DNA from: Apoderus coryli
Taxonomy: Eukaryota; Arthropoda; Insecta; Coleoptera; Attelabidae
Assembly (NCBI GenBank): GCA_911728435.2
Contig: OU452199.1
Span: forward strand, 45,091,004 to 45,155,003
Direction of reading: 5' to 3'
Length of the DNA stretch: 64,000 nt
The notes beneath the pieces were generated by a model. The model was not told the origin of the DNA. It worked only from the letters and a program-made list of their open reading frames with translations, and searched no databases. Shown here piece by piece: positions 1,526 through 52,301 of the stretch (positions are counted from its first letter, which is position 1; each line of letters begins with the position of its first letter). A program made the position numbers and the translations under genes.

Positions 1526-2329
1526 AATTAAGTATTGAATTGATTGTCTTTATATAACTCTATGAATTCCCTCATAATGTCTTCGTGTTTCTTTGATAGT
1601 CTAGAATTTGCCATTTTTTTTCAGCGCCTATTCTGCCACGAAAATCACGTAGAAACAGTCTTGGCGCGAAACCTAACAAAAAACTGAACATACACTGACA
1701 AGTTGGCCTTAGCACTTGCTCTAAAAATCAGACGCAATCTGATTCGCTTCGAGCCGCGCTTGGAACTGAACGCGCCGTGAGTTTTGAGACATACACATTC
1801 GCACTTACACGCGTGTCTCGACCTGTACAGGCAAGTCTTAACACTTGCCTGCATGTGTATAGGCCGCTTTAAGCTGCACTCATGCCTTTTCAATTGTGTA
1901 TTATTGATTGTTTGATTTATTGATTTAAAAATATACGCAATTTGAATGAAGACTATTATTATTATTATATTCAGAACATCTTTTTGTAACATAAGAGAAA
2001 ACCCAACGAAACTAGTCTTTTTCCTATTATAAAAAACAAATATTTCTTATAATATTTTCAAAGTTCCGGTTATATTTACTTTCTCTTTAAAATTACATTA
2101 AAAGTTTTATAATTTTAATGGACACAGTCTCCTTCAATTATAATTCTACTTAATAATAATAATATTACGCAGGAGAGAGAAAGATGTTGAATTATGAGCA
2201 TCTTATAGTAGAGAAATTTCGAAATTAACTGAAGTAGTTTACAAAGTTTATTTTGTACAAAATTTATTAATATAAGTTTGATTTATAAAACCAGGATTAG
2301 TTATTTTATATTAGATAGGAACATTATTA
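1526..2329. other. unrecognised DNA
   Basis: A 115-codon frame on the minus strand (1645-1992) has no recognisable domain and its composition looks like chance. A short TTA-type microsatellite lies near 1950-1970. Nothing else can be supported. Confidence 0.4.
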
Positions 2330-2538
2330 ACAATACGTCCGTAGGATCAGAAAGAAAAAACAAAACTTTGACAAAACCCGATTTTCTTATTCAACGTAGT
2401 TAGAGAATACGGGGTGCGGCTGGGTAAGCAATTCGAAGCACAATTCATTCAATTTTACCATAGTTCGTCATCGATTTGTGACACGGTGTATTGTCTTGGT
2501 GAAACAACACTTTCTTCTTTTGCAAATGTGGCCGTTTA
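2330..2538 (-). pseudogene. mariner transposase remnant (C-terminal core)
   Basis: Read on the minus strand from 2538 the translation is KRPHLQKKKVLFHQDN followed by TPCHKSM. This is the mariner transposase segment around the second catalytic aspartate (FHQDNAPCHKS in functional members). After a +1 frameshift near 2455 the text resumes as KLNELCFELL, the mariner segment that normally precedes the third catalytic aspartate. The reading then jumps to a C-terminal SNYVE-stop, so the PYSPDLAPSD block with the third aspartate is deleted and the gene is dead. The left limit is estimated from mariner-like 3' UTR composition. Upstream (to the right) the gene runs without a break into the minisatellite, and no N-terminal half is present anywhere near. 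Confidence 0.8.
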
Positions 2539-5500
2539 TTTTTTTTTCTTTTGCAAATGTGGCCGTTTCTTTTGCTAATGTGGCAGTTTCTTTCTTTTTT
2601 CTTTTGCAAATGTGGCCGTTTCTTTTTCTTTTGTTTTGCAAATGTGGCTGTTTATTTTTTTTTCTTTTGCAAATGTGGCCGTTTCTTTTCCTTTTGCTAA
2701 TGTGGCAGTTTCTTTCTTTTTTCTTTTGCAAATGTGGCAGTTTCTTTCTTTTTTCTTTTGCAAATGTGGCCGTTTCTTTTCCTTTTCTTATGTTTTGCAA
2801 ATGTGGCCGTTTATTTTTTTTTTCTTTTGCAAATGTGGGAGTTTCTTTTTTTCTTCTTTTGCAAATGTGGCCGTTTCTTTTTTTTTTCTTTTGCAAATGT
2901 GGCCGTTTCTTTTTTTTTCTTTTGCAAATGTGGCCGTTTATTTTTTCTTTTGCAAATGTGGGAGTTTCTTTTTTTTTTCTTTTGCAAATGCGGCCGTTTC
3001 TTTTTTTTTCTTTTGCAAATGTGGCCGTTTCTTTTTTTTTTTTTGCAAATGTGGGAGTTTCTTTTTTTTTTCTTTTGCAAATGTGGCCGTTTCTTTTCCT
3101 TTTGCTAATGTGGCAGTTTCTTTCTTTTTTCTTTTGCAAATGTGGCCGTTTCTTTTTTTTTTTTTTTTGCAAATGTGGCCGTTTCTTTTTTTTTCTTTTG
3201 CAAATGTGGCCGTTTATTTTTTTTTTCTTTTGCAAATGTGGGAGTTTCTTTTTTTTTCTTTTGCAAATGTGGCCGTTTCTTTTCCTTTTGCTAATGTGGC
3301 AGTTTCTTTCTTTTTTCTTTTGCAAATGTGGCAGTTTATTTCTTTTTTCTTTTGCAAATGTGGCCGTTTCTTTTCCTTTTGCTAATGTGGCAGTTTCTTT
3401 CTTTTTTCTTTTGCAAATGTGGCCGTTTCTTTTTCTTATGTTTTGCAAATGTGGCCGTTTATTTTTTTTTTCTTTTGCAAATGTGGCCGTTTCTTTTTTT
3501 TTCTTTTGCAAATGTGGCCGTTTCTTTTTTTTTTTTTGCAAATGTGGCCGTTTCTTTTTTTTTCTTTTGCAAATGTGGCCGTTTCTTTTTTTTTCTTTTG
3601 CAAATGTGGCCGTTTATTTTTTTTTTCTTTTGCAAATGTGGGAGTTTCTTTTTTTTTCTTTTGCAAATGTGGCCGTTTCTTTTCCTTTTGCTAATGTGGC
3701 AGTTTCTTTCTTTTTTCTTTTGCAAATGTGGCAGTTTCTTTCTTTTTTCTTTTGCAAATGTGGCCGTTTCTTTTTTTTTTCTTTTGCAAATGTGGCCGTT
3801 TCTTTTTTTTTCTTTTGCAAATGTGGCCGTTTATTTTTTTTTCTTTTGCAAATGTGGGAGTTTCTTTTTTTTTTCTTTTGCAAATGTGGCCGTTTCTTTT
3901 CCTTTTGCTAATGTGGCAGTTTCTTTCTTTTTTCTTTTGCAAATGTGGCAGTTTCTTTCTTTTTTCTTTTGCAAATGTGGCCGTTTCTTTTCCTTTTGCT
4001 AATGTGGCAGTTTCTTTCTTTTTTCTTTTGCAAATGTGGCCGTTTCTTTTTCTTATGTTTTGCAAATGTGGCCGTTTATTTTTTTTTTCTTTTGCAAATG
4101 TGGGAGTTTCTTTTTTTCTTCTTTTGCAAATGTGGCCGTTTCTTTTTTTTTTCTTTTGCAAATGTGGCCGTTTCTTTTTTTTTCTTTTGCAAATGTGGCC
4201 GTTTATTTTTTCTTTTGCAAATGTGGGAGTTTCTTTTTTTTTTCTTTTGCAAATGTGGCCGTTTCTTTTTTTTTCTTTTGCAAATGTGGCCGTTTCTTTT
4301 TTTTTTTGCAAATGTGGCCGTTTCTTTTGCAAATGTGGCCGTTTCTTTTTTTTTCTTTTGCAAATGTGGCCGTTTATTTTTTTTTCTTTTGCAAATGTGG
4401 GAGTTTCTTTTTTTTTCTTTTGCAAATGTGGCCGTTTCTTTTCCTTTTGCTAATGTGGCAGTTTCTTTCTTTTTTCTTTTGCAAATGTGGCAGTTTCTTT
4501 CTTTTTTCTTTTGCAAATGTGGCCGTTTCTTTTTTTTTTCTTTTGCAAATGTGGCCGTTTCTTTTTTTTTCTTTTGCAAATGTGGCCGTTTATTTTTTTT
4601 TCTTTTGCAAATGTGGCCGTTTATTTTTTCTTTTCTTTTGCAAATGTGGCCGTTTCTTTTTTTTTTTCTTTTGCAAATGTGGCCGTTTCTTTTTTTTTCT
4701 TTTGCAAATGTGGCCGTTTATTTTTTCTTTTGCAAATGTGGGAGTTTCTTTTTTTTTTCTTTTGCAAATGTGGCCGTTTCTTTTTTTTTCTTTTGCAAAT
4801 GTGGCCGTTTCTTTTTTTTTTTTTTGCAAATGTGGCCGTTTCTTTTTTTTTCTTTTGCAAATGTGGCCGTTTCTTTTTTTTTCTTTTGCAAATGTGGCCG
4901 TTTATTTTTTTTTTCTTTTGCAAATGTGGGAGTTTCTTTTTTTTTCTTTTGCAAATGTGGCCGTTTCTTTTCCTTTTGCTAATGTGGCAGTTTCTTCCTT
5001 TTTTCTTTTGCAAATGTGGCCGTTTCTTTTTCTTTTGTTTTGCAAATGTGGCCGTTTCTTTTTTTTTTTTTTGCAAATGTGGCAGTTTCTTTCTTTTTTC
5101 TTTTGCAAATGTGGCCGTTTCTTTTCCTTTTGCTAATGTGGCAGTTTCTTTCTTTTTTCTTTTGCAAATGTGGCCGTTTCTTTTTCTTATGTTTTGCAAA
5201 TGTGGCCGTTTATTTTTTTTTTCTATTGCAAATGTGGCCGTTTCTTTTTTTTTCTTTTGCAAATGTGGCCGTTTATTTTTTCTTTTGCAAATGTGGGAGT
5301 TTCTTTTTTTCTTCTTTTGCAAATGTGGCCGTTTCTTTTTTTTTTCTTTTGCAAATGTGGCCGTTTCTTTTTTTTTCTTTTGCAAATGTGGCCGTTTATT
5401 TTTTCTTTTGCAAATGTGGGAGTTTCTTTTTTTTTTCTTTTGCAAATGGGCCGTTTCTTTTTTTTTCTTTTGCAAATGTGGCCGTTTCTTTTTTTTTTTT

Positions 5501-7740
5501 GCAAATGTGGCCGTTTCTTTTTTTTTCTTTTGCAAATGTGGCCGTTTCTTTTTTTTTCTTTTGCAAATGTGGCCGTTTATTTTTTTTTTCTTTTGCAAAT
5601 GTGGGAGTTTCTTTTTTTTTTCTTTTGCAAATGTGGCCGTTACTTTTCCTTTTGCTAATGTGGCAGTTTCTTTCTTTTTTCTTTTGCAAATGTGGCAGTT
5701 TCTTTCTTTTTTCTTTTGCAAATGTGGCCGTTTCTTTTTTTTTCTTTTGCAAATGTGGCCGTTTATTTTTTCTTTTGCAAATGTGGGAGTTTCTTTTTTT
5801 TTTCTTTTGCAAATGTGGCCGTTTCTTTTTTTTTCTTTTGCAAATGTGGCCGTTTCTTTTTTTTTTTTTTGCAAATGTGGCCGTTTCTTTTTTTTTCTTT
5901 TGCAAATGTGGCCGTTTCTTTTTTTTTCTTTTGCAAATGTGGCCGTTTATTTTTTTTTTCTTTTGCAAATGTGGGAGTTTCTTTTTTTTTTCTTTTGCAA
6001 ATGTGGCCGTTTCTTTTCCTTTTGCTAATGTGGCAGTTTCTTTCTTTTTTCTTTTGCAAATGTGGCAGTTTCTTTCTTTTTTCTTTTGCAAATGTGGCCG
6101 TTTCTTTTTTTTTTTTCTTTTGCAAATGTGGCCGTTTCTTTTTTTTTTCTTTTGCAAATGTGGCCGTTTATTTTTTTTTTCTTTTGCAAATGTGGGAGTT
6201 TCTTTTTTTTTTCTTTTGCAAATGTGGCCGTTTCTTTTCCTTTTGCTAATGTGGCAGTTTCTTTCTTTTTTCTTTTGCAAATGTGGCAGTTTCTTTCTTT
6301 TTTCTTTTGCAAATGTGGCCGTTTCTTTTCCTTTTGCTAATGTGGCAGTTTCTTTCTTTTTTCTTTTGCAAATGTGGCCGTTTCTTTTTCTTATGTTTTG
6401 CAAATGTGGCCGTTTATTTTTTTTTCTTTTGCAAATGTGGGAGTTTCTTTTTTTCTTCTTTTGCAAATGTGGCCGTTTCTTTTTTTTTTCTTTTGCAAAT
6501 GTGGCCGTTTCTTTTTTTTTCTTTTGCAAATGTGGCCGTTTATTTTTTCTTTTGCAAATGTGGGAGTTTCTTTTTTTTTTCTTTTGCAAATGTGGCCGTT
6601 TCTTTTTTTTTCTTTTGCAAATGTGTCCGTTTCTTTTTTTTTTTTTTCAAATGTGGCCGTTTCTTTTTTTTTCTTTTGCAAATGTGGCCGTTTCTTTTTT
6701 TTTCTTTTGCAAATGTGGCCGTTTATTTTTTTTTTCTTTTGCAAATGTGGGAGTTTCTTTTTTTTTTCTTTTGCAAATGTGGCCGTTTCTTTTCCTTTTG
6801 CTAATGTGGCAGTTTCTTTCTTTTTTCTTTTGCAAATGTGGCAGTTTCTTTCTTTTTTCTTTTGCAAATGTGGCCGTTTCTTTTTTTTTTTCTTTTGCAA
6901 ATGTGGCCGTTTCTTTTTTTTTCTTTTGCAAATGTGGCCGTTTATTTTTTTTTTCTTTTGCAAATGTGGGAGTTTCTTTTTTTTTTCTTTTGCAAATGTG
7001 GCCGTTTCTTTTCCTTTTGCTAATGTGGCAGTTTCTTTCTTTTTTCTTTTGCAAATGTGGCAGTTTCTTTCTTTTTTCTTTTGCAAATGTGGCCGTTTCT
7101 TTTCCTTTTGCTAATGTGGCAGTTTCTTTCTTTTTTCTTTTGCAAATGTGGCCGTTTCTTTTTCTTATGTTTTGCAAATGTGGCCGTTTATTTTTTTTTT
7201 TCTTTTGCAAATGTGGGAGTTTCTTTTTTTCTTCTTTTGCAAATGTGGCCGTTTCTTTTTTTTTTCTTTTGCAAATGTGGCCGTTTCTTTTTTTTTCTTT
7301 TGCAAATGTGGCCGTTTATTTTTTTTTTCTTTTGCAAATGTGGGAGTTTCTTTTTTTTTTCTTTTGCAAATGTGGCCGTTTCTTTTTTTTCTTTTGCAAA
7401 TGTGGCCGTTTCTTTTTTTTTTTTTTCAAATGTGGCCGTTTCTTTTTCTTTTGTTTTGCAAATGTGGCCGTTTCTTTTTTTTTTTTTTGCAAATGTGGCA
7501 GTTTCTTTCTTTTTTCTTTTGCAAATGTGGCCGTTTCTTTTTTTTTCTTTTGTAAATGTGGCCGTTTCTTTTTTTTTTTCTTTTGCAAATGTGGCCGTTT
7601 CTTTTTCTTTTGTTTTGCAAATGTGGCCTTTTCTTTTTTTGCAAATGTGGCAGTTTCTTTCTTTTTTCTTTTGCAAATGTGGCCGTTTCTTTTTTTTCTT
7701 TTGCAAATGTGGCCGTTTCTTTTTTTTTCTTTTGCAAATG
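2513..7740. repeat. 5.2-kb minisatellite of roughly 150 monomers, mariner-derived
   Basis: Tandem monomers mostly 30-34 bp long (range about 22-37) are built around GCAAATGTGGCCGTTTC plus a variable T/C tract on the plus strand. Recurrent monomer classes are GTGGCCG, GTGGGAG, CTAATGTGGCAG, and ones preceded by CTTATGTTTTGC or CTTTTGTTTTGC. These recur in fixed order with spacings of about 120, 185-190, 215-220 and 247 bp between GTGGGAG monomers. A marker pair (CTTATGTTTTGC followed by TTCTTCTTTTGC) recurs near 2790, 4052, 5187, 6392 and 7166, which shows higher-order units of about 0.8-1.26 kb. The minus strand encodes KRPHLQKKKK in one frame, in register with the mariner remnant at the left edge. 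The array has almost no stop codons in any frame, so the very long open frames here are not genes. Confidence 0.95.
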
Positions 7741-8307
7741 TTTGAGAGACAGCAGCTGGTCGAGTTGAACGGTGAAACATCTTTTCTTAAAAGGGTGAGC
7801 CTCAGGGCTCTGTACTTGGCCCATTACTTTTCATTATATACATTAATGATATCTCCCATTATATGTCAGATATCTTATTTCCGTCCCTTGTTGCAGATGA
7901 TGCCAGTTTTGTGTCGAGTAGTTCCAGTTTTGACAATCTGAACAATATTTCCCTTTCGGTCTTGAATGCAGCCAAGAAATGGTTTGGTGCGAACGGATTA
8001 AGGTTTAACGAGGTCAAGTATAATATTCTGAAGCTGTCTTCTAATTTCTCCCATATCAGTGGTGATACTGTCAAAGTGCTTGGAGTCTATTTGGATGACA
8101 ATCTTAACTGGTACTCTCACATCGAACACCTAAGTCGCAAGTTGTCCAGTGCTATTTTTGCTTAGACAGCTTGCGTGTTACTTAAATTTTCATGTCCTTA
8201 GAACGGCTTACTTTGGGGGTTTCCATTCACATTTGTGAAGTATTATATTTATATTGACAACCTGTATTTTTCGAATATTGTAATAAATTATCTATTTATC
8301 TAATATT
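7741..8307 (+). pseudogene. LINE reverse transcriptase fragment (family 3)
   Basis: The sequence starts abruptly at the last satellite monomer with FERQQLVELNGETS, the segment that normally leads into the RT PQGS motif. After a one-base frameshift near 7790 it reads GEPQGSVLGPLLFIIYINDI and then VADDAS at the catalytic box (YADD or FADD expected). It ends around 8164 after VKVLGVYLDDNLNWYSHIE. The short 3' UTR ends in a TATCTATTTATCTAA-type tail, like the LINE at 17182-17937. The 5' part is missing, the frame is broken and the catalytic tyrosine is changed, so it is inactive. Confidence 0.8.
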
Positions 8308-9157
8308 AAGGGATGTTTAGACTCGAAAGACATGTTACTATGTTTCAAACGACCACCAACCTTTAATAACCTCCTTTCATCTAAAAACGGATTTAATCAA
8401 ATCAATTTACTCTTTTTTGAAACCCCTTTTGACATTGAAAGAGTTGTGTTTTCTTCTGAAAAGGAATAAACTTGTGCCAATTTGATTAATTTCACCATTA
8501 ACTTTTTTGTGAGTACCTTTTCGACAATTTTCTTTAAACCTAAAACAATTTGCAACTTGAATACCTCTCAAAAATGCTGTGATTTAACTTTAGTTACGCC
8601 ATCTATGTTTCATCCTACGGCCTTTTTGAATGGACTAATACTATACTGATTTTTCCCGGAAACCTACATTATGCACAGTCGAAAGACCTCTATCTTCGTT
8701 TTCATTGGGTCACCCAGTATAAAATTCAAAAACCATCACGATATGACCGGAAAAGATAAAATGTGTATACAGAAATTTACGACGTTCCCAACTAGGGAAA
8801 AAATATTCTATACATAGTAGGTACAATTTTTTCCATTTGGCTGAATATCCTATCTTGTCCATTATTGGCGCAAGACGAGCCACCAAAGTCATTTATCACC
8901 TCCTGCTCCTGCATGTTGTAGGCGTTCTGAATAGCGGCTAAAATGACAAGTTGTTTCTATTCAATGTAGTGTTCCCGCATTTTTTACTCACTGTATTTAA
9001 CGGATATTAAATTTATTGATTAGTCAGGATGTTTTGCTAATAAAGCGACACCCACGAGGTTAGTTTAAGGAATCCAATTATTTACAGTACAGAATACAGT
9101 GACGGTCAATGGGAAACTTGTTTCCATTAAACATTTTGGTAATTATTGGCTACTTAC
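8308..9157. other. intronic DNA without recognisable content
   Basis: This lies directly downstream (minus strand) of the splice donor of exon 9158-9360 and should be intron of the Sidestep-like gene. I find no next exon in it and no repeat shared with other parts of the window. Confidence 0.45.
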
Positions 9158-26337: not shown

Positions 26338-29300
26338 TTATGTTGCTGCAAGACCCATCTTTCTACAGATTTCTTTTAGTTTTTCGTTAGATATCCCTTT
26401 TGTGAGTGCATCTGCTACCATATCTTTTGTAGAAATACTCTGAACTTGAATTTCACCACGGTTTTGCATCTCCCGTACAAAATGGTGTTTTATATCGATG
26501 TGCTTGCTTCTTGGTCTGTATCCTGCATTTTTACTTAAATCAATCGCTCCTTTATTATCGCAGTATATTTTTATGAAATTCAAACTATCTGGTATGATTT
26601 CATTAATAAGATTCTTTAAAAATATAGCTTCCTGTGTAGCGAAACTTAAAGCCATATATTCGGCTTCTGTCGTTGATAGTGCGACTGTAGTTTGTTTCTT
26701 TGACGCCCAACTGACGGCACCTCCACCAAGCAGGAAAACATATGCCGCTGTAGACTTCCTATCATCTTGATCACCGGCCCAATCAGAGTCACAATAACCA
26801 CAAATATCTTCTAAACATTGATTAAATTGTAACTTGAAATTTACGGTGTTTTTTAAATAACGGAAGATTCGTTTGACTGCTGCCCAATGAACTTTGCCAG
26901 GATTTTGATTGAATCGTGAAAGCACCCCCACTGAATAAGCTATGTCTGGGCGAGTACATTGTGCTGCGTACATAATGCATCCGATTGCCTCTTGATAGGG
27001 AAACTTTGACATTTCTTTCTTTTCAGCATTTGTCTTAGGTTGTCCATCTTTGGTAAATGCTTGGTTTATATCCAAAGGAGTGGATATTCCATTACAATTT
27101 GACATGTTGAAACGGGTAAGAATATCCGTAATATATTTTTCTTGGTCAAGAGTAATGGTCTTTTTTCTTCTATCTCGAGTGATTCTCATACCAAGGCAAT
27201 AATGTGCTTCTCCAAAATCTTTCATCTTAAAACGTTTCATTAACATCATTTTAAGATTATTTTTTTCATATATATCATTTGAAAATATTAAAATGTCATC
27301 TACGTATATTGCTAAAACTATATCTTTACCATTTTTTCTTCTAGAATAAACACATGGGTCGTACATTGATTGCTTAAAACCTAGTTCTTTTATGGCTGAG
27401 TCCAGTTCTTTGTTCCACATCCGACTTGACTGCTTTAGGCCATAAAGAGTTTTTAATAATCTACAAATTCTTCCATCAGGTAGTTCCATATATATTTCTT
27501 CATCAAGCTTTGGGTGTAGAAAAGCGGTGACAACGTCCATCTGATCGATTTCCCAATCGTATTTGGCGGCTAGTGCGAGAAGAAGTCTGATGGAACTGTA
27601 CCTAATTACCGGAGAATATGTTTCTTCGTAATCAATGCCTGAAACTTGTGAATAACCTTTTGCTACCAATCGTGCTTTATAGCGATCTATTTCACCAGTT
27701 TTTGTAAATTTGGTTTTAAAAGTCCATTTACTTTTTACAGGTTTCTTGCCGGAAGGAAGTTCACAGATTTCCCAAGTGTTATTCCTTTTATGTGCTTCCA
27801 TTTCCTCGTTCATTGCTTTATGCCATTCACTTGCATTTGTCCCCAATAAAGCTTCATCCATCGTATTTGGATCGAGCGAGAATGATTCGAACGCAGCTTG
27901 ACATATAAAATCTGAGTTAAAAATATTTTTGTTTGGCACATGAACACGATTTGATTTTCTGATCTGGTTTTCTTGATTTTCATCTCTTTCGTTTTCTTTT
28001 AAAATATCCTCAACTTCGCCTAATTCGTTCGATGTTTCTTCAAAAACTTCTTCCACAGGTTCAATAATTATTTTTTTTGTTTCAAATTCTGTAGGCAATT
28101 CCTCCCCCACTTCAACAACAGTTTCTGTGATTTCTAACTGCTGTTGATGGTCATTGCACTGATTTTCAGACATTGGAACCGGAAATATATTATTGTAATA
28201 TTCTTCATTAGTATTTTTATTTAATGATTGGTTTTCGAAGAATTCAGCATCACGTGATATCAGAATTTTGCGTGTAATTGGATGTATAAAACGAAATCCT
28301 TTTGTATGTTCTGTATAACCGACAAATATATATTCCTCAGCTTTTCTATCTAATTTTCTTCTTTTTTCTTTGGGAATGTGTACCAAGGCTTTGCATCCAA
28401 AAATGTGTAGATGTGATAAATTTGGTTTCTCACCTGTCCACGCTTCCTCTGGAGTGCAATTTGCAAGAGCTTTTGTTGGGGATCGATTTTTTAGGTAAAC
28501 TGCTGTGGATATAGCTTCAGCCCAAAAACAGTTTCCAAGCTCTGCATCTATTAACATGCTTCTTGCAGTTTCCATTAGGGTACGATTTAGCCTTTCTGCT
28601 ACACCATTCTGTTGTGGAGTATATGCCATAGTTTTTTGATGTTTTATTCCAGCTTTTTTAAGTATACCCAATAACTGACTGTTGACATATTCAGTACCAT
28701 TATCGGTATGTAGGCATCTTATTTTCTTTTTGGTTTCATTTTCAACGTATGCTTTATACTCCATAAACTTTTCAGTTACTTCGTTTTTTGTTTGAAGAAA
28801 ATAAACTTCAGTTTTTCTGGTAAAATCGTCAGTAAACGTCAAGAAGTACTTGGCTCCACCGATTGACTGAGCTTGCAAGGGACCGCAGACATCAGAATGT
28901 ACCAATTCTAGTGGTTCTTTTGCGCGTTGGCAACTAGCTTTATTAAATGGTTTTCGATGTATTTTACCCTTAATGCATGCTTCACATTTGGAAAAATCGT
29001 CGTTATTGAAACTAATTCCAGTTGCTAATTTATTCTTCAGTAGCTTCATGGATACATTGTTCAAATGACCTAAGCGACGATGCCAAATTTCTTGAGATTT
29101 TAAAGTCCTTACTGTATTTACTAATAATTCTGCTACATCCAGTTTGTACATACCATTTGTTTCAGTGGCAGTGCAAATGATATTCTCTGTATCTAACTTA
29201 ATTTTCTTATTTGTAATGCGACATCCAAATTCTGAATCGAAAATAACAGTTCGACCATTTTTGGTTATTTTACTTACAGACAAAAGATTCATTGCCAAGC

Positions 29301-30324
29301 CTGGTGCATGTGTAACATTTTTGATGGTTATGAAATTTTCATTTTTCAGCTGAATTTCAATATTACCATATCCAGTACAATGCATTTTCGTTCCATTAGC
29401 AATTCCGATTTCCTGATTTTTACATTCTTCAAAATGATCTAATATGTCTTTTGATCCTGTAAAATGTGAAGTTGCTCCTGAATCTATGTACCAGCCTTGA
29501 TTCTCAGTGAATTCATTGCATGTTAACGCTTGATTTGATCGTTTGGTTTTGTCGTTACCTCGTATTGGTTTCTTAGGTTTCTGACATTCGTTGGCCTTGT
29601 GATTATATCCATTACAATTGTAACATCTAGGTCCAGATTTATTAAATTTTTGATATTTCTTACTTGCGAAAGCAATTTCAGTAGTATTTTTGCTACTTAA
29701 ACCTTTTACATTTTCTTGCAGTAAAAGATTTTTAACAAAATCGGTACTAGTCGTCTGCTTTGAGCCTTGAATTCCTAATATCAAAGGTTTGTATTCATCT
29801 GGAAGACCACCAAGAATAATACCACCAACAACATTGTCTTTAAACGGTTCACCAATATTTTCCAGTTGTTCAGCAATATGAATAATTTTATCAATATATT
29901 CTTGCATTGAGGAACAGGAATCAAAATTAGTTTTGAAAAGACTTGAATATAAACTAACTAAACGTACTATACCACTATTTTCGTAAGCTTTTTTCAGATT
30001 ATCCCATGCTTCTTTGGCTGTTTTGGCTTTTTTTGTTTCTGCAGCTGCACACGGCTTTAACGATAAGTTAATTTTTGCTAAAGTTCGTTGATCTACATCT
30101 TCATCAATGTTTTGTCCGACTTTAGGTTCAATACAGTGCCATAAACCTGCGTCTATTAAGTAGTTCTTCATCCAAAACTTCCAATCATTGTAATTTGTAC
30201 CATCCAGGTGTTTATTTTCAGATAAACCTCCTACAGCGGTTGAGATAATTGTTGTGGATTTTCGTTTATCGAGTTCCTTTCTTAAAATATCAATCTGAGC
30301 CTCCAATTCTTCGTTAGTAGACAT
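26338..30324 (-). CDS. copia Gag-Pol polyprotein, 1328 aa, intact
   Basis: This single open frame carries all domains in copia order. The Gag region spans residues 1-230 with the N-terminal DGTNYNDWKFWM motif, and the CCHC zinc knuckle CYNCNGYNHKANEC is at 234-247. The aspartic protease DSG is at 281-283. The integrase has zinc-binding H415, H420, C447, C450 and catalytic D477, D541, E577 (QQNGVAERLNRT). Reverse transcriptase follows, with KARLVAKGYSQ near 883 and YVDD at 1007-1010. RNase H has D1179/D1181, E1220 and D1256, ending in HIDIKHHF and DALTKG near the C-terminus. Integrase precedes RT, which defines Copia as opposed to Gypsy. No stop or frameshift exists and all catalytic residues are present, so the protein may be functional. 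The ATG at 30322-30324 is the first in frame and lies about 160 bp inside the 5' LTR. Confidence 0.97.
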   Translation of the reverse strand: MSTNEELEAQIDILRKELDKRKSTTIISTAVGGLSENKHLDGTNYNDWKFWMKNYLIDAGLWHCIEPKVGQNIDEDVDQRTLAKINLSLKPCAAAETKKAKTAKEAWDNLKKAYENSGIVRLVSLYSSLFKTNFDSCSSMQEYIDKIIHIAEQLENIGEPFKDNVVGGIILGGLPDEYKPLILGIQGSKQTTSTDFVKNLLLQENVKGLSSKNTTEIAFASKKYQKFNKSGPRCYNCNGYNHKANECQKPKKPIRGNDKTKRSNQALTCNEFTENQGWYIDSGATSHFTGSKDILDHFEECKNQEIGIANGTKMHCTGYGNIEIQLKNENFITIKNVTHAPGLAMNLLSVSKITKNGRTVIFDSEFGCRITNKKIKLDTENIICTATETNGMYKLDVAELLVNTVRTLKSQEIWHRRLGHLNNVSMKLLKNKLATGISFNNDDFSKCEACIKGKIHRKPFNKASCQRAKEPLELVHSDVCGPLQAQSIGGAKYFLTFTDDFTRKTEVYFLQTKNEVTEKFMEYKAYVENETKKKIRCLHTDNGTEYVNSQLLGILKKAGIKHQKTMAYTPQQNGVAERLNRTLMETARSMLIDAELGNCFWAEAISTAVYLKNRSPTKALANCTPEEAWTGEKPNLSHLHIFGCKALVHIPKEKRRKLDRKAEEYIFVGYTEHTKGFRFIHPITRKILISRDAEFFENQSLNKNTNEEYYNNIFPVPMSENQCNDHQQQLEITETVVEVGEELPTEFETKKIIIEPVEEVFEETSNELGEVEDILKENERDENQENQIRKSNRVHVPNKNIFNSDFICQAAFESFSLDPNTMDEALLGTNASEWHKAMNEEMEAHKRNNTWEICELPSGKKPVKSKWTFKTKFTKTGEIDRYKARLVAKGYSQVSGIDYEETYSPVIRYSSIRLLLALAAKYDWEIDQMDVVTAFLHPKLDEEIYMELPDGRICRLLKTLYGLKQSSRMWNKELDSAIKELGFKQSMYDPCVYSRRKNGKDIVLAIYVDDILIFSNDIYEKNNLKMMLMKRFKMKDFGEAHYCLGMRITRDRRKKTITLDQEKYITDILTRFNMSNCNGISTPLDINQAFTKDGQPKTNAEKKEMSKFPYQEAIGCIMYAAQCTRPDIAYSVGVLSRFNQNPGKVHWAAVKRIFRYLKNTVNFKLQFNQCLEDICGYCDSDWAGDQDDRKSTAAYVFLLGGGAVSWASKKQTTVALSTTEAEYMALSFATQEAIFLKNLINEIIPDSLNFIKIYCDNKGAIDLSKNAGYRPRSKHIDIKHHFVREMQNRGEIQVQSISTKDMVADALTKGISNEKLKEICRKMGLAAT

Positions 30325-30629: not shown

Positions 30630-30771
30630 AAACACTGAAGACTTTCTATTGATTCCTCAAACGTAAGTCTCAATGCTGTTTGACTCCACAATAGAAACAA
30701 GTTCCCAATTGGTCACACAGTTGTTACTGGAGACCAGGGAATATGAAAAATATAAATGGCAAGTTTATGGG
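30630..30771 (+). pseudogene. uncharacterised repeat-borne protein fragment (right part)
   Basis: This continues 26110-26185 after the copia insertion: RLSIDSSNVSLNAV, then HNRNKFPIGHTV, and in another frame LLLETREYEKYKWQVYG. The last motif corresponds to the family segment Y-x-x-HKWQVCGD. At 30771/30772 the sequence switches to mariner transposase without a stop, giving one continuous 227-codon chimeric frame (30673-31356). Confidence 0.6.
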
Positions 30772-32443
30772 CAAGATTTGGTGCAGAAAGTGGAGGAAAA
30801 GGTGAGAGAAAACAGACGCTTTACAATTTCATCAATGTGCGACTGCTTTCCTCAATATTCTCGTAGTGTTTTGTATCGCATTGTGACCGAGAACTTGAAT
30901 TACCGGAAATTGTGTTTACGTTGGGTTCCAAAAATGTTGACGGATTTGCACAAAACCCAACGTTTAGGCAGTGCATTGACTTTCCTTGAGCGGTACCACA
31001 ATGAAGGTGAAGATTTTTTAGACCAAATTGTTACTGGTGACGAAACATGGGTGGCCTACGTCACACCAGAATCGAAACAACAATCCATGGAATGGCGACA
31101 TTCATCATCACCCAAAAGAGTGAAGTTTAAGCAAACAATTTCTGCCCGGAAAATCATGTGCACAGTTTTTTGGGACAGAAAAGGAGTATTGCTAGTGGAC
31201 TTTCTGCCTCGTAATGAGACAATCAATGCAGCGTCTTATTGTGAGACATTGAACAATCTGCGTCGTGCAATCCAGAACAAAAGAGGTGGCAAGTTGAAAA
31301 TTACCTACTTAATCTCAGAAAGGTTCGAAAAAGGATACGTCACACAAACAAACTAATTTAGTTTAATGATTATTATTAAACAGAAAACAAAAACAATCGA
31401 AAACGAATAACAACAACTAATACTATCTAATTAAATTACAACTACCTACTTACAGTTCTGATCAGTTAACCCCGCACAAAGATATTGTCCCCAATGTCTA
31501 TTCTTCGGTGGCCACCAAGCTTTTAGTTGGTTTATATTGCCCCAACAACACTCAAAACCCCCCGCACAATAACAGCAAAAACCGTAGGTAATTTGGAAAT
31601 TACTACCTACGTAATTCGACGAACCACGTTACTGGTGATAATAGTTTTTCGTTTTTCACAATAGCTAAAGCCAAGTAGTACTGATTATTCTACTTATATG
31701 AAGAATTACAAAATAATCAAAACGATACTTTTATAGGATCGTTTTCTTTTAGTAAAATTATAAACGGTTCGGGAAATTAAAACAACAAAAATGCAACCTG
31801 CTTCTAATGCAGTTGCTGCCCGACTCTCCAGCTTTTTCTCTCCTCCTTTCATCATCATATGTGGTATGGTACGGAAAAAACCCAAAATCGGAATATTCTT
31901 TGACGGTTATACCGCGTTCCTTTCGGCATCTCTTTTAGAGAAACCGCCATATTTGCAGCTGTTATTCCTATTCGCGCACTTCCACAACACCACTTTTGTT
32001 TATCCTTATTCTAAAAATGCACCACTTACACCTAAATAACAAAATATTTGAACTTACTTACTAATTATACCTAATTTAAAATAAAATATATTTACAAGAG
32101 GGTTTGGCCTGTTACAAAGTTGAGTAAGGGTATCGTTTTCCTGCATGACAATGCCCGTCCACATGTGGCTAATCGGACCAAAGATCTCATCAAATCTTTT
32201 AAATGGGAAACTCTAGATCATCCTCCATACAGCCCTGATCTGGCGCCCAGCGACTACCATTTGTTCCTGCACTTGAAGAAACACCTGGGTGGTCAGCGTC
32301 TTCAAGACGATAACGAAGTCAAAACATTTGTGATACAGTGGTTAACAAGTCAGGCGGCAGAATTTTATGAGGAGGGTATTCAAAAACTGGTGCCACGTTA
32401 TGACAAGTGCCTCAATATTCACGGAAATTATGTGGAAAAGTAG
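30772..32443 (+). pseudogene. mariner (DD34D) transposase, 5' truncated and interrupted
   Basis: Starting at QDLVQKVEEKVRENRRFTISS (second helix-turn-helix region), the reading passes WVPKMLTD, the first catalytic aspartate in TGDETWVAY, and FWDRKGVLLVDFLP. It is then broken by the insertion 31295-32116. It resumes with HDNARPHVA (second aspartate), PPYSPDLAPSDYHLF (third aspartate, 34 residues later, hence DD34D) and ends NYVEK-stop at 32443. Removing the insertion rejoins the frame exactly. All three aspartates are kept, but the first DNA-binding helices are missing, replaced by a foreign fragment, so the gene is not functional. Confidence 0.9.
31295..32116 (-). mobile_element. solo-LTR-like insertion in mariner, 822 bp
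   Basis: It starts TGAAAATTACC and ends CCTGTTACA on the plus strand, giving TG...CA ends, with the 4-bp duplication AAGT on both sides (31291-31294 and 32117-32120). Its minus strand starts TGTAACAGGCC, resembling the TGTAAC start of insertion A. The uninterrupted mariner reading frame confirms both edges. Inside lies a perfect inverted repeat GTAGGTAATTT/AAATTACTACCTAC-like near 31585-31612. A Gypsy-type solo LTR is the best fit. Confidence 0.7.
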
Positions 32444-33539: not shown

Positions 33540-35414
33540 TTTTTAGCTCTCCATATCATATATGTAATATATGTATATATGGAGACTATTAGTTTCATGA
33601 AAAAAAAAATTTTTTTAATTTCACCGGAAATACTTGTTTTTGGTCATTTTATACATAAATAAGTAGTTTTAAAAAAATGTCTGTCTGTCTGTCTGTATGC
33701 ACGATAACGCAAAAACCGCTTAACAGATTTTAACCAAATTTGGTACAAAAATACTATTGGACATGGCAAGGAGCTGATTAGATTTTGGGAAACATTGAGC
33801 GTAGGCAAAGGGTTTAAAAGAGGGTTCAAAAATTAAAAAAATTCATAGTTCTTAAACTTATCCGAAATACTGCATAATTTTTTACGCATTTAATTGAATA
33901 TAACCTAAAATATTGAACATAAAATATTAAACCACATTGGCGTCCGAAAATAGTGTAAAATGGGGTAAAAAAGATTAAAAAAAAACGTATTCCTTAAAAA
34001 TAGCAGAAATATTAACTAGTTATTTATAGTTTTGATAGAATATAACCTATAAAATGTGTCATGAATAACTTACTTTCATAGGCGTTCGAAAATAGTGGAA
34101 AAGGGGTCAAAACATAAAAAATATATATTTCCTAAACTTATTCGAAATATGGAATAATTTTTCATAGTTGTGATACAATATAAGCTAAAAAATATTCCAT
34201 AAAAGAATTGGTTCACACAGGCGTTCGAAAATAGTTTAAAAAAAGGGTCAAAAACGAAAAAATAAATGTTTCTCAAATATACCAGAAAAATTGGCTAATT
34301 ATATATAGCTTTGATATAAGATAACCTAAAAAATGCAGCATAAAATTTGTTGTATTTACATAGGCGTTCGTAAATAGTAGAAAAAGGGGTAAAATAAAAA
34401 AAAATTAAAATGTAAAAATTTTTATATTTAACTAGATGAATTGGTGTTAAAAATACACGAAAAAATTAATGTACCATAGGCGTCCGTGAAAATTCTATAA
34501 AAGGGTCAGAAAAAATTTGTATCCGTGATAACTCAAAAACCACTTAACGGATTTTAACCACATTTGGTACGAAAATACTACAGGATATTTAGAGGTGGTG
34601 ATTAACATTGAGCGTAGGCAAGAGGTTTAAAAGAGGGTTCAAAAATTTAAAAAATCAAAGTTCTTAAACTTATCCGAAATATTGAATAATTTTTTATAGT
34701 TGTGATAGAATATAACCTAAAAAATGTTACATAAAAGAATTAGTTCACACAGGCGTTCAAAAATAGTCTTAAAAAACGGGTCAAAAACGAAAAAAAAAAT
34801 GTTTCTCAAATATACCAGAAAAATTGGCTAATTATATATTGCTTTAATATAAGATAACCTAAAAAATGCAGCATAAAATTTTTATTTTCATAGGCGTTCG
34901 TAAATAGTAAAAATAGGGGTAAAATAAAAAAAAATAAAATGTAAAAAAATTTATATTTAACTAGTTGAATTGGTGTTAAAAATACACAACAAAAATTAAT
35001 GTTCCATAGGCGTCCGTGAAAATTCTATAAAAGGGTCAGAAAAAATTTGTATCCGTGATAACTCAAAAACCACTTAACGGATAACCTACAACATGCAGCA
35101 TAACAATTTTGTTTACATAGGCGTTCGTAAATAGTAGAAAAGGGGGCAAAATAAATTTTATAATAAAACTAAAAAAAATGAATTAATTTGCGTTCAAGAA
35201 CTTGGCCTAGATCTGAAATATAAAATATCTGCGTATAAATAGTGCCTCCAAAGAGAAGAAAAAGGCACAAAACCGGATACTTAAAAAAAATAGCTGATGT
35301 CTAAAATAAAACAAAAATTTATTAAATTTAGATAAATGACAAAAAGGTCATAAAATTATTACTTTTACACTTAAATATGGAGAGCTATTCGTGCCTCGAG
35401 GGCAACAGTTTATT
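33540..35414 (+). repeat. 1.9-kb repeat D, copy 1, with internal tandem units
   Basis: It runs from TTTTTAGCTCTCCATATC to GGGCAACAGTTTATT and is repeated in inverted orientation at 50524-52301. AGCTCTCCATAT occurs near the left end and its complement ATATGGAGAGCT near the right. A hairpin (TCTCCATAT...ATATGGAGA) lies within the first 45 bases. The interior has degenerate ~140-bp tandem units carrying AGGCGTTCGAAAATAGT (near 33942, 34081, 34220, 34363, 34752, 34893, 35119), a (TGTC)n run at 33677-33697 and the phrase AAAAACCGCTTAACAGATTTTAACC. No protein is encoded. It is probably a non-autonomous transposon of unknown class. Confidence 0.75.
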
Positions 35415-49612: not shown

Positions 49613-49680
49613 GAACTCCAAAATATAGGCAAAATATGTGGAACCAATCGCAATCAAAGCTATCCGAATCCAAATATTAA

Positions 49681-49853
49681 TGTAATGTATATTGTAATGT
49701 ATAATGTAATGTATAATGTAATTTATATTGTAATGTATAATGTAATGTATAATGTAATGTATAATGTAATGTATATTGTAATGTATAATGTAATGTATAA
49801 TGTAATGTATAATGTAATGTATATTGTAATGTATACTGTAATGTATAATGTAA
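49681..49853. repeat. 12-bp minisatellite with 48-bp higher-order unit
   Basis: Fourteen tandem copies of ATGTATAATGTA. The variable triplet reads ATT, AAT, AAT, ATT, AAT, AAT, AAT, ATT, AAT, AAT, AAT, ATT, ACT, AAT, so an ATT variant recurs every fourth unit, implying amplification of a 48-bp block. The frames MYNVMYNV and YTLHYTLQ through it are artefacts of the repeat. Confidence 0.9.
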
Positions 49854-50523: not shown

Positions 50524-52301
50524 AATAAACTGTTGCCCTCGAGGCACGAATAGCTCTCCATATTTAAGTGTAAAAGTAATAATTGTATGACCTTTTTGTC
50601 ATTTATCTAAATTTAATAAATTTATGTTTTGTTTTAGACATCAGCTATTTTTTAAGTATCGGGTTTTGTGCCTTTTTCTTCTCTTTGGAGGCATTATATT
50701 TATACGTAGATATTTTATATTTCAGATCTTCTAGGCCAAGTTCTTGTACGCAAAATAATTGATTTTTCGTACCAAATGTGGTTAAAATCCGTTAAGTGGT
50801 TTGTGAGTTATCACGGATACAAATTTTTTGTGACCCTTTTATAGGATTTTCATGGACGCCTATGGAGCATTAATTTTTGTCGTGTATTTTTAACACGAAT
50901 TCAACTAGTAAAATATAAAAAAATTTACATTTTAATTTTTTATTTTATCCTTTTTTTTACTATTTACGAACGCCTATGTAAATAAAAATTTTATGCTGCA
51001 ATTTTTAGGTTATCTTATATCAAAGCTATAATATATAATTAGCCAATTTTTCTGGTATATTTGGGAAACATTTTTTTTTTTCGTTTTTGACCCTTTTTTA
51101 AGACTAATTTCGAACGCCTGTGTGAACCATTTTTTAGGTTATATTCTATCACGACTGTGAAAAATTATTCAATATTTCGGGTAATTTTAAGAACTATGAT
51201 TTTTTTAATTTTTGAACCCTCTTTTAAACCCCTGGCCTACGTTCAATGTTAATCACCACCTATAAATTTCCTGTAGTATTTTCGTACCAAATGTGGTTAA
51301 AATCCTTTAAGTGGTTTTTGAGTTATCACGGATACAAATTTTTTCTGACCCTTTTATAGAATTTTCACGGACGCCTATGGTACATTAATTTTTGTCGTGT
51401 ATTTTTAATACCAATTCAACTAGTTAAATAGTTAAATATAAAATTTTTACATTTTAATTTTTTTATTTTACCCCTTTTTCTACTGTTTACGAACGCCTAT
51501 GTAAATACAAATTTTATGCTGCATTTTTTAGGTTATCTTTTATCAAAGCTATATATAATTAGCCAATTTTTCTGGTATATTTGAGAAATATTTTTTTTGT
51601 TTTTGACCCTTTTTTTATACTATTTTCGAACGCCTGTGTGAACCAATTCTTTTATGTAACATTTTTTAGGTTATATTCTATCACAACTATGAAAAATTAT
51701 TCCATACTTCGAATAAGTTCAGGAAATATATATTTTTTATGTTTTGACCCCTTTTTCACTATTTACGAACGCCTATGAAAGTAATTTATTTATGACACAT
51801 TTCATAGGTTATATTCTATCAAAACTATAAATAACTAGTTAATATTTCTGCTATTTTTAAGAAATACGTTTTTTTTAAAATCTTTTTTACCCCATTTTAC
51901 ATTATTTTCGAACGCCAATGTGGTCTAATATTTTATGTTCAATATTTTAGGTTATATTCAATTAAATGCGTAAAAAATTATGCAGTATTTCGGATAAGTT
52001 TAAGAACTATGAATTTTTTTAATTTTTGAACCCTCTTTTAAACCCCTTGCATACGCACAATGTTTCCCAAAATCTAATCAGCTTCTTGCCATGTCCTATA
52101 GTATTTTTGTACCAAATTTGGTTAAAATCTGCTAAGTGGTTTTTGCGTTTTCGTGCAGACAGACAGACAGACATTTTTTAAAACTACTTATTTATGCATA
52201 AAATGACCAAAAACAAGAATTTCCGGTGAAATTAAAAAAAAAAATTTTCATGAAACTAATAGTCTCCATATATTACATTATATGATATGGAGAGCTAAAA
52301 A
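50524..52301 (-). repeat. 1.8-kb repeat D, copy 2 (inverted)
   Basis: In reverse complement it aligns end to end with 33540-35414: the same ends (AATAAACTGTTGCCCTCGAGG at left, ATATGGAGAGCTAAAAA at right), the same internal AACGCCTATG-type units, and a CAGACAGACAGACAGACA run near 52156. Beyond AATAAACTG and CTAAAAA the flanks of the two copies differ, which defines the element limits. It has no coding capacity. Confidence 0.75.

Follow-up and report, generated by a model that had tools for sequence, protein, structure and literature searches.

Background

Tandem repeats born from transposable elements (TEs), including repeats grown from the coding parts of TEs, are known, and the array described here is a clean case of this kind at a single locus. 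It lies in 64,000 nucleotides of the beetle Apoderus coryli (contig OU452199.1 of assembly GCA_911728435.2, positions 45,091,004 to 45,155,003 of the forward strand; this whole stretch is called the window), and is a minisatellite that has very probably grown from one decaying copy of a mariner transposon. Among the systems with which it can be compared are the Alu-derived human minisatellites (Jurka and Gentles 2006) and the Haber-Louis model of 1998, both as cited in PMC6947457 and PMC3389668. In births of the Haber-Louis type, short (5-10 bp) direct repeats flank the motif in the unexpanded source (PMC6947457), and one count has at least 7,276 human minisatellites and satellites born from TEs (PMC3389668). 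As these two papers present it, the route resembles the one proposed here, a piece of a dispersed element between short direct repeats becoming a minisatellite by slippage or unequal exchange; the Alu source is a short interspersed element (SINE), whereas here the source is the coding DNA of a DNA transposon's transposase, expanded at one locus and unexpanded at hundreds.

Coding segments of retrotransposons have given rise to PROsat and Pvc 20 (from open reading frame 2, ORF2, of the long interspersed element LINE-1) and to HinfI (from the 3' untranslated region, UTR, of CR1 together with part of ORF2) (PMC9659126), and gag or pol segments of long-terminal-repeat (LTR) elements are named as a satellite source (PMC12628747). 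In the accounts given there, these satellites share with the present array a monomer taken from TE coding sequence and differ in coming from retrotransposons rather than from a DNA transposon; central parts of DNA transposons are also listed among satellite sources (PMC9659126, PMC12628747). Two further systems belong, like the present one, to the Tc1/mariner superfamily. The first is miDNA4, a satellite of Xenopus derived from a miniature inverted-repeat transposable element (MITE), in which AT-rich short direct repeats flank the monomer, as here, and are the proposed drivers of array growth; unlike the monomer here, that of miDNA4, as described in PMC12628747, is not transposase-coding. The second is the Bari1 clusters of Drosophila melanogaster, also Tc1-mariner DNA in tandem, whose 80-repeat organisation is attributed to anomalous rolling-circle events (PMC9659126).

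The original prediction for this locus, made from its letters alone, had called an internal coding seed unusual, which is fair for DNA transposons in the literature examined, although the kind as such was already known. In open-licence literature, searched by titles and abstract openings and covering the top matches of the larger result sets, no minisatellite is reported whose source is the coding DNA of a mariner transposase. The retrotransposon-derived satellites named above have much longer monomers; the repeat unit of Bari1 is the whole element, as against a 31-bp internal piece here; and the SINE source of the Alu-derived arrays is non-coding.

The array and its mariner source

The array runs head-to-tail through 2510-7740 (called by Tandem Repeats Finder, TRF, as 2511-7741, with a period of 32 and 169.6 copies), and its 169 units of 21-37 bp place it within the definition of a minisatellite as head-to-tail units of >10 and <100 bp (PMC3389668). 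The monomers were delimited by cutting the minus strand at CATT[TA], which occurs at 170 sites, the last of them the mariner's own; about 150 copies had been predicted. Lengths of 32 bp (80 monomers), 31 bp (45) and 27 bp (17) predominate, with 28 bp (8) and 21 bp (2) among the rarer ones, and the commonest monomer types are CATTTGCAAAAGAAAAAAAAAGAAACGGCCA (31 bp) and CATTTGCAAAAGAAAAAAGAAAGAAACTGCCA (32 bp), with 29 copies each. The plus strand of the array is 57% T, with T runs of up to 16. When <=2 mismatches are allowed, a degenerate KRPHLxKKK pattern matches the window 139 times, whereas 100 shuffles average 0.02 matches.

The monomer corresponds to a stretch within the transposase gene, just upstream of the HQDN codons, the D of which we take to be a catalytic residue. 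At the left edge the leftmost monomer (2510-2537) runs unbroken into minus-strand DNA reading KRPHLQKKKVLFHQDNTPCHKSMTNYGKIE, just as had been predicted, so that the array is contiguous with its source element on this side; on the right side it is not. The mariner remnant had been recognised as well, at too short an extent: it comprises the catalytic segment 2403-2537 and, beyond it, the 3' end of the element at ~2314-2401 (Table 1), with ~185 bp deleted between the two relative to another copy, L005. Window positions 2300-2520, used as a query against the whole genome, yielded 1036 candidates. Every one of the 40 that were scored matched, the copy in the window among them (42 matched stretches), and the catalytic part of the remnant is 88-94% identical to the 39 others over about 97-120 bp. 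The window's copy is, in short, shredded.

What the undamaged site looks like is seen in other copies of the family, seven of which were fetched (L002-L008) and six compared at the site, L002 having been missed by the search string. Five of the six (L003-L007) are collinear across it, as in GAAATCGCAAAGAAACGGCCACATTTGCAAAAGAAAAAAGTGTTGTTTCACCAAGACAAT of L005, from which L003, L004, L006 and L007 differ there by few substitutions (L004 and L006 also have small deletions just upstream); the sixth, L008, agrees from CATTTG onward only and is truncated just upstream. L005 is ~1.2 kb long overall and carries 22-nt inverted-repeat arms that are 91% complementary and 1193 nt apart, as befits a mariner (an element of ~1.3 kb with terminal inverted repeats), and there is a TA at both of its ends, a possible target-site duplication, though the surrounding DNA is TA-rich. 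Hand-counting on the L007 translation (HQD...APSD) places 34 residues between the second and third D of what we take to be its catalytic residues, which is DD34D spacing. The family presumably resembles Himar1 (irritans subfamily).

The origin of the array can be read from the 428 Mb assembly as a whole. The 36-mer GCAAAGAAACGGCCACATTTGCAAAAGAAAAAAGTG, a mariner segment that spans the monomer, is found at 447 places at <=2 mismatches (226 on the plus strand, 221 on the minus strand; reversed control, 0), with 88 exact matches among the 100 listed of the 447. None of these places is in the window, the best matches of which have 3 mismatches. The inner 31 bp of the 36-mer are AAAGAAACGGCCACATTTGCAAAAGAAAAAA, the array unit to the letter, which occurs 63 times exactly within the array, and two AAAGAAACGGCCACATTTGCAAAAGAAAAAA units joined head-to-tail reproduce the commonest monomer letter for letter. 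The monomer is thus a TE segment that stands unexpanded elsewhere (447 places, control 0), which bears out the proposal that a piece of transposase coding DNA was the seed; mariners of the same lineage with unlike DNA at this position, the finding named beforehand as fatal to that proposal, did not turn up, the lineage carrying GCAAAGAAACGGCCACATTTGCAAAAGAAAAAAGTG just there.

Tandem copies, by contrast with the single segment, are confined to this locus. Two patterns of exact dimers with a free spacer find 44 and 90 matches genome-wide, and all 44 and all 90 are inside the array; dimers of 28-bp or 21-bp units at <=3 mismatches find 8 and 2, again all inside it; the reversed controls of all four give 0. 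At the sensitivity of these four patterns, which dimers of greater divergence would escape, the array is unique in the genome, and the search for further arrays that had been proposed alongside the search for unexpanded copies yields none. Since the mariner is widespread and the array is at one locus, the direction is from mariner to array.

Table 1. Features of the array locus (window coordinates).
Feature	Position	Strand	Remarks
Minisatellite array	2510..7740	-	169 monomers of 21-37 bp; unit AAAGAAACGGCCACATTTGCAAAAGAAAAAA read on minus strand
Mariner transposase remnant, catalytic segment KRPHLQKKKVLFHQDNTPCHKSM...	2403..2537	-	Includes seed monomer 2510-2537
Mariner 3' end: last codons (NYVE stop), 3' UTR, degenerate 3' terminal inverted repeat	2314..2401	-	Inverted repeat by inspection
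Non-LTR retrotransposon fragment, 3' half, with internal deletion near 8235	7741..8300	+	Relatives extend upstream of 7741
Fragment of longer interspersed repeat	8301..8590		5 other copies among 40 scored of 745 candidates
Mariner 5' terminal inverted repeat and start of 5' UTR	8591..8645	-	Family and orientation as remnant 2314-2537

Proposed birth and growth of the array

The array would have started by mispairing, through replication slippage or unequal exchange, of short A-rich direct repeats flanking the segment, the candidate pairs being AAAGAAA...AAAGAAA (21 bp apart) and AAAG...AAAG (28 bp apart). Both pairs are present in the 36-mer, which has AAAGAAA at either end, and monomers of either length occur in the array (two of 21 bp, eight of 28 bp). 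The unexpanded motif, in L005 as in the 36-mer, is therefore flanked at a distance of 21 bp by a direct repeat within the 5-10 bp of the Haber-Louis model, if not by a unique one. The A-run may then have lengthened by slippage to give units of 31-33 bp, after which blocks of several monomers would have been duplicated by unequal exchange to generate the present mosaic. The order of the monomers retains the marks of such events: runs of >=5 identical monomers at a common offset number 18, where 50 shuffled orders average 0.06, and exact repeats of >=100 bp make up 85.6% of the array, the longest of them (286 bp) standing at 6140 and 6914. The recurring order and the long exact repeats thus argue for block duplication, as by unequal exchange. 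Along the way the reading frame would have been lost, and therefore no protein selected for. A later rearrangement, joining the array to a retrotransposon fragment, is the putative cause of the removal of the array's right part and of the upstream half of the transposase gene.

One of the copies compared above provides a separate observation. Around position 1620 of L008, the mariner is truncated just upstream of CATTTGCAAAAG, which is near the point at which the array starts in the window. This is a single case among six copies; it may hint at a fragile site.

The right edge

The join at 7741 reads ...GCAAATG/TTTGAGAGACAG (the slash marks the junction), and leads from the array into a non-LTR retrotransposon fragment whose reverse transcriptase we take to be of the GEPQGSVLGPLLFIIYINDI type. 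The fragment is 91-95% identical to 39 scored relatives besides the window's own, and it is the five relatives printed in forward orientation that extend upstream of the join. In local alignment, the TG just before the join is common to four of the seven fetched relatives and absent in three, so that microhomology amounts to <=2 bp. The 3' tail of the retrotransposon ends near 8300, at the edge of the next repeat, other copies of which have as much as 2.8 kb in common.

The mariner 5' end that follows this repeat is probably the other end of the copy that gave rise to the array. A tentative alternative is that it belongs to another mariner, the 5' end of the array's own copy having been lost; it touches this detail only, and is compatible with the birth of the array from a mariner. 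Two unrelated repeats do separate the 5' end from the array, and the joined outer flanks (2314/8637), searched for as an empty site, give no hit beyond this locus. Against this alternative, 431 such 5' ends are present in 428 Mb at <=3 mismatches, and the chance of finding one in this orientation within 0.9 kb is ~0.05% by our estimate, which assumes uniform placement and is exceeded by the true chance because repeats cluster.

Objections and alternative explanations

Several observations weigh against growth from a single mariner copy as set out above. No intermediate, in the form of a mariner with few monomers, is found elsewhere in the 428 Mb by the four dimer patterns. The upstream half of the mariner is not present beyond the array, save for the 5' end 0.9 kb off, so that just one of the two original boundaries survives. 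The AAAGAAA pair of L005 is one of seven pairs of >=7 bp at 12-60 bp spacing; two of the others exceed it in length (9 and 8 bp) and four equal it (7 bp). The site is therefore permissive for the birth of a repeat rather than unique. The exact product expected of a 28-bp start, which would keep the junction of the mariner itself, is absent from the array: each of the eight 28-bp units departs from it at a single base, T for G in seven and a different one in the eighth. A start from 21 bp is less likely than one from 28-31 bp, because the full AAAAGAAAAAA tail is kept in most monomers. Lastly, the array is read from the assembly, in which T-rich runs make consensus errors likely.

This last point is also what would speak for the array as an assembly artefact, a collapse or an expansion error in a T-rich repeat. 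That explanation is improbable: the array contains many distinct monomer types, arranged in a non-random block order, and its outer flanks (2065-2314 and 8637-8886) are each found once in the assembly. The exact length of the array is uncertain.

Slightly less probable still is that the minisatellite existed first and that a mariner captured it or recombined with it, the likeness of monomer and transposase being secondary. Capture of ready-made tandem repeats has been described for a MITE and for Helitrons (PMC12628747), and the right side of the array is not mariner; the monomer, however, agrees with the mariner in all 31 bp at its own codon position, the last monomer is collinear with the transposase gene, and the dimer searches reveal no array elsewhere.

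Coding capacity

The original prediction had every monomer encode KRPHLQKKKK in a single frame, and this does not hold. At the 170 sites the peptide is KRPHLQKK in 99, KLPHLQKK in 36, KLPH followed by a stop in 18, and something else in 17, two of which also have a stop, for a total of 20 stops in 170 sites within the eight codons examined. The CAT codon is spread over the three frames (58/57/55), a consequence of monomer lengths that are mostly 31 or 32 bp. The near-equal use of three frames, together with the stops, means that the array is no coding repeat in the mariner's KRPHLQKKKK frame. The array probably has no function.

The least likely of the alternatives, that the array encodes a lysine-rich repeat protein or is retained by selection, can cite long open frames on both strands (the longest, of 909 codons, on the plus strand), which are expected of a stop-poor repeat as such, and it is met by the shifting of frame with monomer length, by the stops, and by a Pfam scan of a typed 40-residue repeat of the monomer peptide, which matched no family. 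A coding function is rejected on the frame spread and the stops.

Implications

As a rule, the birth of a minisatellite has to be deduced when its source has long since decayed. Here the source is still recognisable at 447 places, and one can read off the sequence from which the array started, the direct repeats that flank it and one of the original boundaries; a rough birth count is 1 expansion among 448 recognisable seeds. If the array did originate as proposed, the sister copies that stayed unexpanded, hundreds of them in this one genome, serve as its natural controls. A bolder and rather doubtful claim would be that this is the first documented minisatellite from a catalytic-domain coding segment of a DNA transposon and, at the same time, that the lysine codons flanking KRPHL are a recurrent seed, imposed by coding, in such mariners across animals. 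The array itself leads to the testable prediction that lysine-codon runs flanking KRPHL should occasionally seed similar arrays in other genomes rich in mariners of this type.

Further searches and other features of the window

In public collections, a degenerate DNA pattern for the mariner peptide has no match in viral_contigs or genome_contigs; in viral_contigs, a Himar1-based search gave no confirmed locus, and neither the monomer dimer nor the single-copy DNA had a match. In the PDB, a 30-residue fragment had no match apart from three weak ones, all to an unrelated growth factor, and Pfam recognises no domain in the short mariner pieces or in window positions 7863-8162, as may be expected from their short length.

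The window holds a second, different mariner at 30673-32443, split into two open frames, the first of which matches Pfam Transposase_1 (E 4.6e-22) and the second, weakly and below the cut-off, DDE_3. A copia-type open frame of 1328 codons occupies 26338-30324 on the minus strand; its residues 900-1300 have a best identity of 61% among the 120 proteins listed. Related arrays with units of ~140 bp lie at 33889-34414 and 51458-52040 (3.7 and 4.2 copies) on opposite strands, and belong to one longer interspersed element that also flanks the mariner copy L008. A short-unit array of TAATGTAATGTA (14.7 copies, 93% matches) is found at 49678-49853.
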